Of a stretch of DNA of 64,000 nt, positions 52,003 through 58,569 are shown in pieces. Within the stretch, counting starts at the first letter, position 1; each line of letters opens with the position of its first letter. The DNA is from Leptothermofonsia sichuanensis E412 (lineage in GTDB: Bacteria; Cyanobacteriota; Cyanobacteriia; Leptolyngbyales; Leptolyngbyaceae), in the NCBI RefSeq assembly GCF_019891175.1, contig NZ_CP072600.1, forward strand, positions 2,170,001-2,234,000, in the 5' to 3' direction. The notes beneath the pieces are model-generated. The model did no database searches, was not told the origin of the DNA, and worked only from the letters and a program-made list of their open reading frames with translations. The translations under genes and the position numbers were made by a program.

Positions 52003-52890
52003 TTAAACCCCCGGTGGGGCAGTGGCTAATAGGGCAAATACTCCAAGCAGCATACTCAGTCTTTCCCATGAGATAAAGGTTTGATAGGCGATCGCGCTGC
52101 GCTGTTGCTGGTAATGGGCAAGGGCACTGCCCAGAGTGCCTGTTACTGCCACAGCCAGCCCTGCAAATAACCAGGGATGAGCCATTGGCAGCATATAAAG
52201 GGCAAGCGGAATAGACCCCAACAGTCCAGCCAGTAATATCCAGGCAATCAAAAATGCAGTCCGATCACCCCACAGATTGGCAATCGTGGTAATACCCTGA
52301 CTGCGATCGCCCTCCGCATCATGGACATCCCAGACAATTTCCTTTGCCAGGGCATAGAAAAAGAGAAATCCCGTAGGATAAAGCATGGCAAAAGGATGAT
52401 TTGCCACCAGACTCCCCAGAAAAATCAGTGTAGCCCCGATGGTGGCAACAATGAAATTGCCCAAGATGCCACTGTAAAGCAAAAGATGAGAGTAATTCCA
52501 CAGTAGAACAATGCTGATAAAAACAATCATCGCCGGGTAAACCCCCAGAGGAATAGCACTGGCCAGTGAGATGCCAAACAAAATAACAGCCGCCCACCAG
52601 GCTTGCTGAGGCAAAAGGGCACCAGAGGGCAAGGGGCGATCGGGGTGATCAATCCGGTCTTTGTCCACATCCCAATAGTCGTTGATGGTGCAAGCAGCAG
52701 CACTCATACAGAATAGAATCACTGCTGTCAGTCCACATTTCCAGAAGGGCGTCGTGGAATTCACGGCATAGATGGTCGCGCAGCTTGCCAACGCCGCCAT
52801 GATGGCTAGCGGCAATCGGAAAATGTGGGCAAATGCCCGAATTAACCGAAGGTCAAGGGGTGGGTTGGGGGAAGAGGGGTGGCTGTCCAT
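52003..52890 (-). CDS. UbiA-family prenyltransferase
   Basis: A 295-residue membrane protein with about nine helices. The two Asp-rich motifs are present: NDYWDVDKDRIDHPDRPLPS and KEIVWDVHDAEGDR. These bind magnesium and the prenyl diphosphate. The form of the first motif is closer to the geranylgeranylglycerol-phosphate/UbiA group than to chlorophyll synthase or the usual homogentisate phytyltransferase. The frame opens at 52980; the ATG with complement at 52888-52890 (MDSHPSSPNPP) is preferred because the upstream part is low-complexity. The acceptor substrate is unknown. Clustering with hppD and homogentisate dioxygenase makes a homogentisate-like or other aromatic acceptor a reasonable guess. 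Confidence 0.85.
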   Translation of the reverse strand: MDSHPSSPNPPLDLRLIRAFAHIFRLPLAIMAALASCATIYAVNSTTPFWKCGLTAVILFCMSAAACTINDYWDVDKDRIDHPDRPLPSGALLPQQAWWAAVILFGISLASAIPLGVYPAMIVFISIVLLWNYSHLLLYSGILGNFIVATIGATLIFLGSLVANHPFAMLYPTGFLFFYALAKEIVWDVHDAEGDRSQGITTIANLWGDRTAFLIAWILLAGLLGSIPLALYMLPMAHPWLFAGLAVAVTGTLGSALAHYQQQRSAIAYQTFISWERLSMLLGVFALLATAPPGV

Positions 52891-53026: not shown

Positions 53027-53163
53027 AGAAACTGTTTGTAAATAAATATAAACGCCTTGATAAGCGAGGAATTCGAGGTTTTCCAGAACAAATAATCTGA
53101 ACCTCGAAACCTTTGAGTTGCAAACGCCTGAACAGTTTTAACACTAGTTTACAAACAGTTTCT
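53027..53163. mobile_element. MITE-like element with 16-bp perfect terminal inverted repeats
   Basis: AGAAACTGTTTGTAAA (53027-53042) and TTTACAAACAGTTTCT (53148-53163) are perfect 16-base inverted repeats bounding 137 bases. A second, internal pair TTCGAGGTT/AACCTCGAA (around 53073-53107) sits inside. There is no open frame. The right terminus overlaps the last codons and stop of the heme-oxygenase-like gene. I see no clear target-site duplication. Size and plan fit a non-autonomous transposable element. Confidence 0.75.
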
Positions 53164-54069
53164 AAAGCGATCGCGCTCCAGTCCATCCCAGAAGACAGCG
53201 ATCGCTTCCAGGATTTCTTTTCCTCCTTGCAAAAACCTGATCCGGTCAAAGTTGGGGCTGAAATAGACTGTCTCCAGTTCTTCCAGGGTGTGTCCGGCGT
53301 GTTGTGCCTCTACCCGGTTGTGCCAGGTAAAAAATGCCAGTCGTAAATTGGGATAGCGTTGCTGTTTCAGCCGCAATAACCCATCTTCCAACTCCTGCCA
53401 GAACCCGGCAGCCGCCCAGTTTTCTACAGCAAAACTGGCACCCTCCGCGATCGCCGGATCATCACTGCCATAAAGCCGCTGCAACTCATCACAAAAATGC
53501 AGGGTTGCGGGTGTGCCGTGCTTGCGCTTACCAATGTCCTCGTAGTGTAACCCCAGCCCCTCTGCCACGACTGTCAACCACTCAAAATGGGCTGCCCGAA
53601 AACGGCAAATTCCACCATCAACAGTGCCCTCGGTGCTGACCAGTTCCGGGTCACCTTCCCGGTCTTTGTCGATGTCAGTTTGAGCGGGGACAGTGGCACC
53701 AGATTGCCCGGTTCTACGGTAAATCACCCCTAACTCGTTCAATAAAATCTCCCGACTGGCGCGGGATTGTTGCAGCGTAGGTGAGTTAATCACTTTCAAC
53801 AGGGCAGCAATCAGAAATTGATTGGAAAAGACAGAAAACTGCTTAATAAAATGCCGCAATTCTTCATCGGTTGCTGTACCTGTGGCAAACCAGCGGGTGT
53901 AGGCATTGTCAGTGATAATCCGGTGCTGCAAAAACTCGCGATCGACCTCTGCCAGAAAATCCTGAAAATCCCTCACCTGTTTTTGAGTTAGCTCCCCCTG
54001 GTGTAACCGTTCCTCAATCCGGACAGAGATGGTTGAGTGGTTGGGGGAATTGGTAAGAACATGAACCAT
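53149..54069 (-). CDS. Heme-oxygenase-like di-iron (HDO-type) protein
   Basis: A 306-residue, all-helical protein. The start is the ATG with complement at 54067-54069, preceded by AGGAGGAGG at eight bases; the longer frame to 54192 is rejected. Near the C-terminus His250-x3-Glu254-x2-His257 (FFTWHNRVEAQHAGH) matches the third-helix metal motif of heme-oxygenase-like diiron enzymes such as CADD and UndA. Glu112 (NELG), His161 (HFEWL) and Glu216 (ENWAA) are candidates for the other ligands. Enzymes of this superfamily use O2 to oxidise small acids or amino-acid-like substrates. The substrate here is unknown; the neighbours suggest an aromatic or homogentisate-derived compound. The last codons (RNCL) and stop come from the terminus of a MITE-like element. 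Confidence 0.7.
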   Translation of the reverse strand: MVHVLTNSPNHSTISVRIEERLHQGELTQKQVRDFQDFLAEVDREFLQHRIITDNAYTRWFATGTATDEELRHFIKQFSVFSNQFLIAALLKVINSPTLQQSRASREILLNELGVIYRRTGQSGATVPAQTDIDKDREGDPELVSTEGTVDGGICRFRAAHFEWLTVVAEGLGLHYEDIGKRKHGTPATLHFCDELQRLYGSDDPAIAEGASFAVENWAAAGFWQELEDGLLRLKQQRYPNLRLAFFTWHNRVEAQHAGHTLEELETVYFSPNFDRIRFLQGGKEILEAIAVFWDGLERDRFRNCL

Positions 54070-54222: not shown

Positions 54223-55377
54223 CTAAACACTCCAACTGTAGGCATACTCCCTGTCTTCAACCTGAACGGCTTGCTGTGTGAATCTCAGTGGATGAAACAC
54301 ATCAATCATCACCGCCAGTTCATCGGTTCGTTCTTTGCCAATCGACCCTTCATACATACCGGGATGGGGACCGTGGGGAATTCCCCCTGGATGAACAGTG
54401 ATTGAAGCTGGCTCAATCCCTTGCCGCGACATAAACGCCCCATCCACGTAGTAAAGAACCTCATCCGAATCCACATTGGAATGGTTGTAAGGTGCAGGAA
54501 TTGCCTGGGGGTGATAGTCAAACAGACGCGGCACAAACGAACACACCACAAAACCTGGACCATCAAAGGTTTGATGCACCGGGGGGGGCTGATGCACCCG
54601 ACCTGTAATCGGCTCAAAATCTTCAATATTGAAGGCAAAGGGATAGAGATGCCCATCCCAACCCACCACATCCAGGGGGTGATAGCGGAACAGGTAATGG
54701 GTGATGCGATCGCGGGCCTTCACCCGCACCTCAAATTCACCCTCTTCATCGTGGGTCACCAGCTTATCTGGTGGACGAATATCTCGTTCACTGTAGGGAG
54801 CATGTTCCAGAAACTGTCCATAGCGGTTGAGGTAACGAGCTGGTGGTTCAATATGCCCGTGGGCTTCAATCACCAGCATTCGTTGTTCCGTGTCCTCTGG
54901 AATAATCCGCCACAGCACACCCGTTGGAATCACCAGATAATCACCGGGGCGATAGCGCAAAATCCCATACTGACTTTCTAAAACACCTGTACCTGTATGA
55001 ATAAAAAACAATTCATCTCCCTGAGCAAACCGGTACCAGTAAGCCATTGGTTCCGTTGGACAGGCGATCGCAATACACAAATTAGAGTTAATCAGCAAAG
55101 GAACACGGGAGGCAATCCCATCGCCTGACGTGGTTATTCTGGCAGTCCGCAAATGGCGAGGACGCAAAGCATCCGATTCCCCATAGTGGATCTCGACAGG
55201 GTTCTCCAGCAGAATCTTCTGGATCTGGGTGGGTGGATGCAGGTGATAAAGCAACGATTGAATCCCGGAAAACCCATGAATTCCCATTAACTCTTCGTGG
55301 TATAAAGAGCCATCTGGCTGTCGGAACTGAGTGTGTCGCTTGTGGGGAATCGTGCCCAACTTATAGTAATAACTCAT
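54223..55377 (-). CDS. hmgA: Homogentisate 1,2-dioxygenase
   Basis: A 384-residue cupin-type dioxygenase. Candidate Fe(II) ligands are His299 (YNHSNVDSDE), Glu306 and His335 in GGIPHGPHPG; His329 six residues earlier matches the position of the catalytic histidine in characterised enzymes. It opens the ring of homogentisate with O2 to maleylacetoacetate, the second step of tyrosine breakdown after HppD. The enzyme is shorter than the animal type (about 440) but of the size seen in many bacteria. It lies 125 bases after hppD on the same strand. Maleylacetoacetate isomerase and fumarylacetoacetase are not in this window. Confidence 0.9.
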   Translation of the reverse strand: MSYYYKLGTIPHKRHTQFRQPDGSLYHEELMGIHGFSGIQSLLYHLHPPTQIQKILLENPVEIHYGESDALRPRHLRTARITTSGDGIASRVPLLINSNLCIAIACPTEPMAYWYRFAQGDELFFIHTGTGVLESQYGILRYRPGDYLVIPTGVLWRIIPEDTEQRMLVIEAHGHIEPPARYLNRYGQFLEHAPYSERDIRPPDKLVTHDEEGEFEVRVKARDRITHYLFRYHPLDVVGWDGHLYPFAFNIEDFEPITGRVHQPPPVHQTFDGPGFVVCSFVPRLFDYHPQAIPAPYNHSNVDSDEVLYYVDGAFMSRQGIEPASITVHPGGIPHGPHPGMYEGSIGKERTDELAVMIDVFHPLRFTQQAVQVEDREYAYSWSV

Positions 55378-55502: not shown

Positions 55503-56612
55503 CTAAAGGTTTCCTCTCAACGCTTGCTCTCGTTCGATCGCTTCAAACAATGCCTTAAAGTTTCCTTCGCCAAAGCCCTGGGATCCCTGACGCTGAATGA
55601 TTTCAAAGAACAGAGTGGGTCTATCCTGAACAGGGCGAGTGAAGATCTGGAGCAGGTAACCTGCCTCATCTCGATCAATTAGAATTCCTAACGCTGCCAA
55701 TTTCTCAATGGGTTCACCGATTGTTTCAACCCAGGGGTCTAAATGGTTGTAATAGGTTTCAGGTACACTCAGGAATTCAACCCCAAGCTGTTTAAGGATA
55801 GCGACTGTTTCAATAATATTGTCAGTTGCCAGGGCAATATGCTGCACACCAGCACCATGATTGTATTCCAGATATTCCTCAATCTGGGATTTACGTTTTC
55901 CAGAGGCAGGTTCATTAATTGGAAACTTAATCTTACCGCTGGTGTCTTGCATCACTTTAGACATCAGTGCAGAGTATTCAGTTGAAATGGTTTTGTCATC
56001 AAACTGCATCAGCAGATTGAAGTCCATAATACTGGCGAAAAACTCTGCCCAACGATCCATTTGCCCAAACTCAACATTCCCAACCACATGGTCGATCGCC
56101 TTCAATCCAGTCTGGTTCTCTACCTTCTGTGACAGGGGATGCATTTCTATTGTCCGGGGCACAAAACCTGGCGCAAATACTCCAGCATAATCGGCGCGAT
56201 CAACAAACTTGATTACCACATCCCCGTAAGCATGGATCGCGGCATAGCGCAGATTGCCCCAGGCATCTCCCATTTTAGTGGGTGGAATTGCTCCGGTTGC
56301 TCCTCTAGCCGTCGTTTCCTGGTATGCCCGGACGACATCTGGAACTTCCAATGCAATCACCGCAACTCCATCCCCGTGTTTCTGCACACTGTCTGCAATC
56401 CTGTGGTAGGGATGGAGGGCTGCACTCAAGACAAATCGAATTTCTCCCTGCTCCATGACATAGGAAGCGACTTCACGATTTCCCGTTTCCAAACCCTGAT
56501 AGGCTGTGTTAGTAAACCCAAAACACCTGGAGTAGAATTGTGCCGCCTGTTGGGCATTGCCCACGTAAAACTCCAGGTGGTCAAAGCGTTTGACCGGAAA
56601 CAATCTGTTCAT
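55503..56612 (-). CDS. hppD: 4-hydroxyphenylpyruvate dioxygenase
   Basis: A 369-residue enzyme of the vicinal-oxygen-chelate fold with two related halves. Fe(II) ligands are His175 (IDHVVGNV), His258 (VQHIALATDN) and Glu337 (FFEIIQRQGS). It converts 4-hydroxyphenylpyruvate, the deaminated form of tyrosine, to homogentisate, the head group for tocopherol and the substrate of HmgA. AAGGAGG six bases before the ATG is a strong ribosome site. It is the first of five consecutive minus-strand genes and is divergent from an Lrp/AsnC regulator across a repeat-rich 480-base control region. Confidence 0.95.
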   Translation of the reverse strand: MNRLFPVKRFDHLEFYVGNAQQAAQFYSRCFGFTNTAYQGLETGNREVASYVMEQGEIRFVLSAALHPYHRIADSVQKHGDGVAVIALEVPDVVRAYQETTARGATGAIPPTKMGDAWGNLRYAAIHAYGDVVIKFVDRADYAGVFAPGFVPRTIEMHPLSQKVENQTGLKAIDHVVGNVEFGQMDRWAEFFASIMDFNLLMQFDDKTISTEYSALMSKVMQDTSGKIKFPINEPASGKRKSQIEEYLEYNHGAGVQHIALATDNIIETVAILKQLGVEFLSVPETYYNHLDPWVETIGEPIEKLAALGILIDRDEAGYLLQIFTRPVQDRPTLFFEIIQRQGSQGFGEGNFKALFEAIEREQALRGNL

Positions 56613-57093: not shown

Positions 57094-57630
57094 TTGCCCA
57101 AACAGCCTGCCAGAGGAAAGTCTAAAGTGAAACCGGCCCTGAAACACTCAGAATCACTTCAAGCCCTTGACGAAATTGATCGTCAAATTTTGCAACTACT
57201 CCAGGAAAATAGCCGTATTACCAGTACTGAACTGGCCCGTCAGGTCAACCTCTCCACACCCGGACTGCAAAAGCGACTGAAGAAGCTGGAAACAACTGGC
57301 GTTATTGGACGGTATGTCACCCTGATGAACCGAGAAGCACTGGGTTTAGACCTGTTGTGCTTTGCTCAGGTGACACTGGCGCATCATCAGCCTGAATGTG
57401 TGGGTGAATTTTGTCATCAGGTTACAGAACTACCAGAAGTGTTGGAATGCCATCACCTGACAGGTGACTTTGACTATTTGTTAAAAGTTGTTGTGGCAAA
57501 TCATCAACATCTGGAACAGCTTCTGTCTGAAAAAATTACCAAGATTCCCGGTGTAGATCGGATTCGAACCAATATTGTTTTGAATGAAATTAAAACCTCG
57601 ACTTCATTACCGTTGAAGTCAGTCCATTAA
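57094..57630 (+). CDS. Lrp/AsnC-family transcriptional regulator
   Basis: A 178-residue regulator starting at TTG (57094) behind AGGGAGAG. After a basic, probably disordered N-terminal extension of about 22 residues comes the winged helix-turn-helix (LDEIDRQILQLLQENSRITS and ELARQVNLSTPGLQKRLKKL), then the RAM/effector domain (about 85-165) with HHLTGDFDYLLKVVV. Lrp proteins form octamers or other oligomers and respond to amino acids. Its divergence from hppD is the usual position of a local regulator of aromatic amino-acid catabolism; tyrosine or phenylalanine would be a natural effector, which is inference. The stop codon lies in a short direct repeat of AGTCCATT units (57615-57645). Confidence 0.9.
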   Translation: MPKQPARGKSKVKPALKHSESLQALDEIDRQILQLLQENSRITSTELARQVNLSTPGLQKRLKKLETTGVIGRYVTLMNREALGLDLLCFAQVTLAHHQPECVGEFCHQVTELPEVLECHHLTGDFDYLLKVVVANHQHLEQLLSEKITKIPGVDRIRTNIVLNEIKTSTSLPLKSVH

Positions 57631-57669: not shown

Positions 57670-58569
57670 ATGCTGAATTCAACAAAAATCCTCCTGAAGT
57701 CGATTGTGGATTATGCTGGGCTGTTTCCTCCCGCCGCATTGGATATGCGGCAGGCAATGGAAAATTATGCCCGATACCAGATGTCAGCCGCTGCCTGGAT
57801 GCTGGGTCGCTTTATACTGCCTGCATCCAGATTGGAGGAATTCATTGCCCTGCTGCCCTCAGTTTGCTTAAAACCAGCTTGTCTAAAGCAATGGTCCCTC
57901 AGCCTGATTCTGACGGCAGACTGGAGAGAGGCGATCGCCCAGGTCCAATCTTTTACCACTCCCGAAATTGCCATCACTGCCTTAGAACTGCCACCCCTGC
58001 CATGCCAGGAAATTACGCCCGTTCTGGCTGACCTGCCCAGGGAAATCGAAACCTTTGTTGAAATTCCCCTGAGTGAAGATCCTGTTCCCTACCTCGAAGG
58101 TCTGAAAAACACCGGAGCCGCCGCAAAAATTCGCACCGGGGGTGTGACGGCAGCGGCATTTCCCACCTCTGCCCAATTAGGGCGTTTCATCACGGCCTGT
58201 GCTGAGATGGTCATTCCCTTCAAGGCGACTGCCGGTCTGCACCATCCCTTACCCAACTGCTATCGCCTTACCTGCAAACCAGACAGTCCTTCCAGCCAAA
58301 TGCATGGCTTTTTGAATGTGGCAATTCTGTCTGCCCTCCTGTTTCAGCAAAAAAATAAGCGACAATCCATAACTTCAGAACAGGCATTCGCAGTTCTCGA
58401 CCACGCCTCCCTTAAGCAGTTCCAATTCAGCGACAGCGGCATTTTCTGGAATGGGCATTTCCTGGATTGTGCTGTCCTGGCAAACACGCGACAACACTTC
58501 TTTCGTTCCTTTGGCTCCTGTTCCTTCCAGGAACCTGTCCAGGACCTCCAAACCCTTCATCTACTTTGA
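57670..58569 (+). CDS. Conserved protein of unknown function next to the tyrosine-catabolism regulator
   Basis: A 299-residue soluble protein. AGAGAGG precedes the ATG. The best-defined parts are the N-terminal DYAGLFPPAALDMRQAMENY and the C-terminal strand-turn motifs AAAKIRTGGVTAAAFP and IPFKATAGLHHPL. The alternation of strands with KIRTGG and KATAGLHH late in the chain looks like the phosphate- or acid-binding end of a TIM barrel, but I cannot name a family. It follows the Lrp gene by 39 bases on the same strand. Its position suggests a part in the aromatic catabolic pathway, possibly a step not covered by the genes seen here; this is inference. Confidence 0.6.
   Translation: MLNSTKILLKSIVDYAGLFPPAALDMRQAMENYARYQMSAAAWMLGRFILPASRLEEFIALLPSVCLKPACLKQWSLSLILTADWREAIAQVQSFTTPEIAITALELPPLPCQEITPVLADLPREIETFVEIPLSEDPVPYLEGLKNTGAAAKIRTGGVTAAAFPTSAQLGRFITACAEMVIPFKATAGLHHPLPNCYRLTCKPDSPSSQMHGFLNVAILSALLFQQKNKRQSITSEQAFAVLDHASLKQFQFSDSGIFWNGHFLDCAVLANTRQHFFRSFGSCSFQEPVQDLQTLHLL

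Follow-up and report, generated by a model that had tools for sequence, protein, structure and literature searches.

A candidate pterin-independent phenylalanine 4-hydroxylase of the heme-oxygenase-like di-iron superfamily, encoded with tyrosine-catabolism genes in bacteria

Introduction

What would an oxygenase of the heme-oxygenase-like di-iron (HDO) superfamily, a group of iron enzymes as yet little explored, do among the genes of tyrosine breakdown? The question is raised by a gene for a protein of 306 aa (positions 53149..54069, minus strand) in a 64,000 nt stretch, here called the window, of the 6.43-Mb single-contig genome of the cyanobacterium Leptothermofonsia sichuanensis E412 (NZ_CP072600.1, positions 2,170,001 to 2,234,000). 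A first-pass annotation of the DNA had assigned the product to the HDO superfamily and guessed at an undescribed aromatic oxidation, and the comparative evidence given below supports that guess. We propose, from genomic data and with a probability of roughly 0.7, that the protein (HDO in the following) is a di-metal oxygenase that forms L-tyrosine by hydroxylating C4 of L-phenylalanine, in place of the pterin-dependent phenylalanine hydroxylase (PAH). Slightly less secure, but still probable, is the broader proposal that HDO-superfamily, pterin-independent phenylalanine 4-hydroxylases are non-homologous replacements of PAH across Cyanobacteriota, Planctomycetota, Krumholzibacteriota and other phyla, and would be the first ring-hydroxylating HDOs.

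Superfamily membership

The gene begins with an ATG at 54069, with a strong ribosome-binding site, CAGGAGGAGGAACCGATT, just 5' of it, and the place, strand and residue numbers given in the first-pass annotation were right. Among 84,980 species genomes, 123 related stretches were detected and 80 of them kept; the nearest relatives are in Leptolyngbyaceae and Fischerella (80–85% identity). Two alignments were examined, one of 53 relatives down to 52% identity (A3; Cyanobacteriota, Planctomycetota, Krumholzibacteriota and others) and one of 15 sequences that includes a clade at 37–38% identity (A1). The residues E112, H161, E216, H250, E254 and H257 are each invariant in both (53/53 and 15/15), and since this holds even in the 37–38% clade, the six-residue pattern is not a product of chance. 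The candidate set equals the 3H/3C ligand set described for most HDOs (PMC13108848). E163 is present in 53/53 sequences of the full-type set and is replaced by N in two divergent members; an extra Glu, on an auxiliary helix, is a feature of the SznF-type 3H/4C set.

Structure prediction with the 53 natural relatives as input gave a heme-oxygenase-like model (pLDDT 82, pTM 0.80). Among solved structures its best match was BesC (Z 21.3 over 220 residues), followed by FlcD (Z 20.9), HrmI (20.0), CADD (19.3), UndA (18.1), PolF (17.6) and AetD (16.5), with matches spanning 210–230 residues. Comparison with CADD and UndA had been proposed in the first-pass annotation as a check on the superfamily claim, and the scores show strong agreement with HDOs. 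A further cyanobacterial protein with a heme-oxygenase-like fold, the CADD-like Npun_F6505 of Nostoc punctiforme (PDB 3b5o/3b5p), matches at Z 17.5 but is only 15–16% identical in sequence to the window protein.

Sequence searches gave much fainter signals. Solved-structure searches by sequence returned no significant relative, PHROGs gave no match, and a Pfam scan at E 1 found no Biopterin_H (PF00351) in the protein. The Pfam family Haem_oxygenas_2 came up at E 0.03, below the cut-off and a weak hint only, and the NCBIfam model for BesC (4-chloro-allylglycine synthase, NF042919) at E 3e-4, with 20.3 bits against an equivalog cut-off of 500. Profile alignment places E216, H250, E254 and H257 on the E and H-x3-E-x2-H of BesC, in a match that is not significant alone. 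On its predicted fold and its motif we class the protein as an HDO, with the six residues as candidate metal ligands. It has the predicted fold and the E, H, E, H-x3-E-x2-H set in common with BesC, HrmI, CADD/PabS, UndA, AetD, PolF and SznF, but is only 11–18% identical to them, carries a low-confidence loop of about 40 residues between E112 and H161, and belongs to primary catabolism rather than to natural-product or cofactor synthesis.

The tyrosine-catabolism cluster

Upstream of the HDO gene, and on the same strand, lie genes for 4-hydroxyphenylpyruvate dioxygenase (HPPD; 55503..56612, minus strand; TIGR01263, 445 bits against a cut-off of 277) and for a short form of homogentisate dioxygenase (HGD; 384 aa, 54223..55377, minus strand). 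Of 48 cyanobacterial loci, 47 show the order HPPD-HGD-HDO, and HPPD and HGD each stand close to HDO in 47/48. Other frequent members of the cyanobacterial cluster are fumarylacetoacetase (FAH; TIGR01266, 524 bits), an acetoacetate-CoA-ligase-like enzyme (AACS), a conserved protein designated U299, and an Lrp regulator. Together these make up the pathway from tyrosine to fumarate and acetoacetate. HPPD is also present in 12 of 13 HDO loci of Planctomycetota, where it usually follows HDO in an arrangement unlike that of cyanobacteria, HDO-HPPD(-HGD), and it was found in 17 of 18 genomes with a full-type HDO. The short HGD of the window scores 54 bits with TIGR01015, under the cut-off of 511; its residues H299, E306 and H335 fall on the metal-ligand positions of solved HGDs, labeled here by the ligands of human HGD, and all three are kept.

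Alternation with phenylalanine hydroxylase

PAH (PF00351, Biopterin_H) was detected in none of 22 HDO-bearing genomes from several phyla. For a baseline, one set of genomes from each of two phyla, Krumholzibacteriota (n = 80) and Planctomycetota (n = 149), was searched for all three of HDO, PAH and HPPD. HPPD is present in 35 of the 80 Krumholzibacteriota genomes, and 22 of these have HDO, 10 have PAH, three have neither and none has both (Fisher p 1.6e-6); all ten PAH genomes (10/10) carry HPPD. A true HPPD occurs in 16 of the 149 Planctomycetota genomes, two with HDO, nine with PAH, five with neither and, again, none with both. When the 51 HPPD-positive genomes are pooled, the counts become 24 HDO, 19 PAH, eight neither and zero both (p 4.7e-8), a co-occurrence p-value that, like the Fisher value, ignores shared ancestry. 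The PAH and HDO states must have switched at least five times on the gene tree of HPPD.

The scanned PAHs are aromatic amino-acid hydroxylases, most of which pass a curated cut-off, mainly that of phenylalanine 4-monooxygenase, the rest being weaker matches to the same family. In Planctomycetota, PAH can itself sit inside the HPPD/HGD cluster (L158, L160, L161): L160 has it together with HGD and HPPD, L158 together with AsnC, HPPD, FAH and HGD. In Krumholzibacteriota the HPPD-HGD-U299-FAH-AACS cluster is unchanged whether the genome has PAH or HDO elsewhere. HDO is found only where PAH is missing in these two phyla, and so is probably a second, unrelated solution to the conversion of phenylalanine to tyrosine. 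It would resemble PhhA/PAH in the reaction proposed and in its position in the pathway, but belongs to another protein family, and the two never occur together in the genomes tested. A biosynthetic role, the supply of tyrosine in organisms that lack tyrA, was also considered and is not a general explanation, a TyrA-type domain being present in 18 of the 22 HDO genomes.

Proposed reaction and alternatives

Since the downstream pathway is complete without HDO, and HDO alternates with PAH, its substrate is likely to lie upstream, with L-phenylalanine as the likely compound and phenylpyruvate as a weaker candidate. O2 is the oxidant of known HDOs, which use it at a site of Fe2 or Mn/Fe, and amino acids are substrates of several of them (PMC13108848); both the substrate class and the oxidant thus fit phenylalanine hydroxylation. 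Structures of AetD and PolF with Trp or Ile, which are among the model matches, were also counted in favor of an amino-acid substrate. The three His and three Glu residues (E112, H161, E216, H250, E254 and H257) would hold two metals, probably Fe2; O2 would bind to the reduced cluster, and a peroxo or high-valent species would attack the ring of the bound phenylalanine. As the gene cluster holds no gene for pterin recycling or for a reductase, the two electrons may be delivered by a general carrier, for instance ferredoxin. The tyrosine produced would feed the adjacent pathway by way of an aminotransferase, then HPPD, HGD, an isomerase, FAH and acetoacetate activation.

A role within the pathway itself is implied by the substrates suggested in the first-pass annotation, namely 4-hydroxyphenylpyruvate, homogentisate and ring-opened products, with HDO, for instance, standing in for HGD or processing maleylacetoacetate. 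It is made attractive by the position of HDO directly after HGD in the cyanobacterial operon, and by an HGD that is short, divergent and far below its cut-off. However, the PAH genomes keep the HPPD-HGD-U299-FAH-AACS set without any HDO, and the short HGD retains its metal-ligand positions, both of which disfavor a role on homogentisate. The isomerase slot, moreover, may belong to U299, and the alternation with PAH would be left unexplained. We consider such a role unlikely, and the comparative evidence points upstream of those substrates; the enzyme probably supplies the homogentisate pathway and does not act on homogentisate itself. Another entry to homogentisate, through hydroxylation of phenylpyruvate, phenylacetate or another phenyl compound, draws on the same context data, because alternation with PAH says only that HDO supplies a hydroxylated precursor, and conversion of phenylpyruvate to 4-hydroxyphenylpyruvate satisfies every genomic observation. 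Phenylalanine itself is nevertheless the simplest replacement for the PAH substrate, and a preference for amino acids is known from several HDOs (PMC13108848); a different entry compound seems improbable to about the same degree, if marginally more so. CADD is among the close folds, and HDO might be a self-sacrificing p-aminobenzoate synthase of the CADD/PabS kind, or another cofactor-making HDO, linked to tyrosine catabolism by chance. The CADD product comes from a tyrosine of the CADD protein itself (PMC11965152, PMC13108848). The catabolic HPPD/HGD association and the alternation with PAH both speak against this explanation, no folate gene was recognised among the recurring neighborhood families, and it appears very improbable.

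Several observations weigh against phenylalanine hydroxylation by HDO. The alternation fixes the pathway step and not the substrate, so that formation of 4-hydroxyphenylpyruvate from phenylpyruvate would fit too. Hydroxylation of an aromatic ring, the reaction proposed here, is not among the HDO reactions reviewed in PMC13108848, and a dedicated electron donor was not found in the cluster. Only four independent contrasts lie on well-supported branches of the HPPD tree, PAH being opposite in about two, and with so few a phylogenetically corrected sign test is powerless. HPPD was not detected in three HDO-positive metagenome-assembled genomes of Krumholzibacteriota. In Cyanobacteriota that have HGD and lack HDO, no PAH was seen near HGD, a result that covers gene neighborhoods rather than whole genomes and for which one locus is cited. 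A plasmid of Gloeothece verrucosa (L322:8001-10896) carries a 69%-identical HDO outside any HPPD cluster. Finally, there are the eight HPPD-positive genomes with neither enzyme, which may have no entry from phenylalanine, an incomplete assembly or a third solution; they are G505, G469, G532, G423 and G522 of Planctomycetota and G583, G616 and G621 of Krumholzibacteriota. A search of open-licence PMC articles found no paper that treats HDO together with phenylalanine hydroxylase or with homogentisate, and none on a pterin-independent phenylalanine hydroxylase, which is weak evidence of absence.

Divergent relatives and a plasmid homologue

Small Cyanobacteriota genomes outside the class of the window (L172-L175, L320 and L321) encode HDO proteins at 33–38% identity. 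Next to it these genomes have an HGD of divergent sequence, a gene of the FAH family and a glyoxalase-like protein in which the HPPD-like motif FFEFVQR occurs; a standard HPPD is missing, and the loci possibly represent a variant pathway. Because this clade also adjoins HGD and FAH-family genes, the link between HDO and homogentisate-type genes may be old, and the substrate in the divergent clade may differ. On the Gloeothece plasmid, the HDO is annotated 'hypothetical protein', and after it come a 2OG-Fe dioxygenase and a PLP enzyme that resembles cysteine desulfurase; the same enzyme may serve in natural-product formation there.

Neighboring genes

Divergent from HPPD is the gene for an Lrp/AsnC-type regulator (57094..57630, plus strand), a family present in 18 of the 48 cyanobacterial HDO loci, and beyond it that of U299 (299 aa, 57670..58569, plus strand), found in 37 of the 48. 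U299 has no Pfam or NCBIfam match. Its predicted model (pLDDT 92.5) is an aldolase-like (beta/alpha)8 barrel with deoxyribose-phosphate aldolase as its best match (Z 14.6), and KIRTGG (K153) and KATAGLHH (K185), two motifs whose lysines are invariant, resemble the catalytic-lysine motifs of that enzyme. In Krumholzibacteriota and Streptomyces the gene is flanked by HGD and FAH, and in Priestia by HPPD and FAH. Maleylacetoacetate isomerase is glutathione-dependent elsewhere, and U299 occupies its place in the cluster. U299 may thus be a candidate glutathione-independent maleylacetoacetate isomerase, and a Schiff-base isomerase is a reasonable guess.

Downstream of HDO is a gene for a UbiA-family prenyltransferase (52003-52890, minus strand), nearest to the PRK12884/geranylgeranylglycerol-phosphate type. 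The first-pass annotation had set HDO between HGD and this prenyltransferase; the HGD/HPPD side of that setting recurs in 47/48 cyanobacterial loci, whereas the prenyltransferase side is incidental, occurring in just 2/48, and the gene was rejected as a part of the system. A second HPPD gene occurs in the same genome outside the window (G000:C1:4794084-4795142, L127), adjoining one whose product has a TyrA-type domain (4792851-4793159), a neighbor that hints at a separate copy for biosynthesis.

Significance

The conversion of phenylalanine to tyrosine is the reaction that fails in phenylketonuria, and in textbooks the step is tied to one protein family and its tetrahydropterin cofactor. If the proposed activity is true, a second, unrelated and pterin-free enzyme would represent convergent evolution of this step, and the chemistry of HDOs would be extended to aromatic hydroxylation. 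It would also provide a new scaffold for tyrosine production or for research into the treatment of phenylketonuria, and would explain how phenylalanine may be broken down without PAH in these bacteria.
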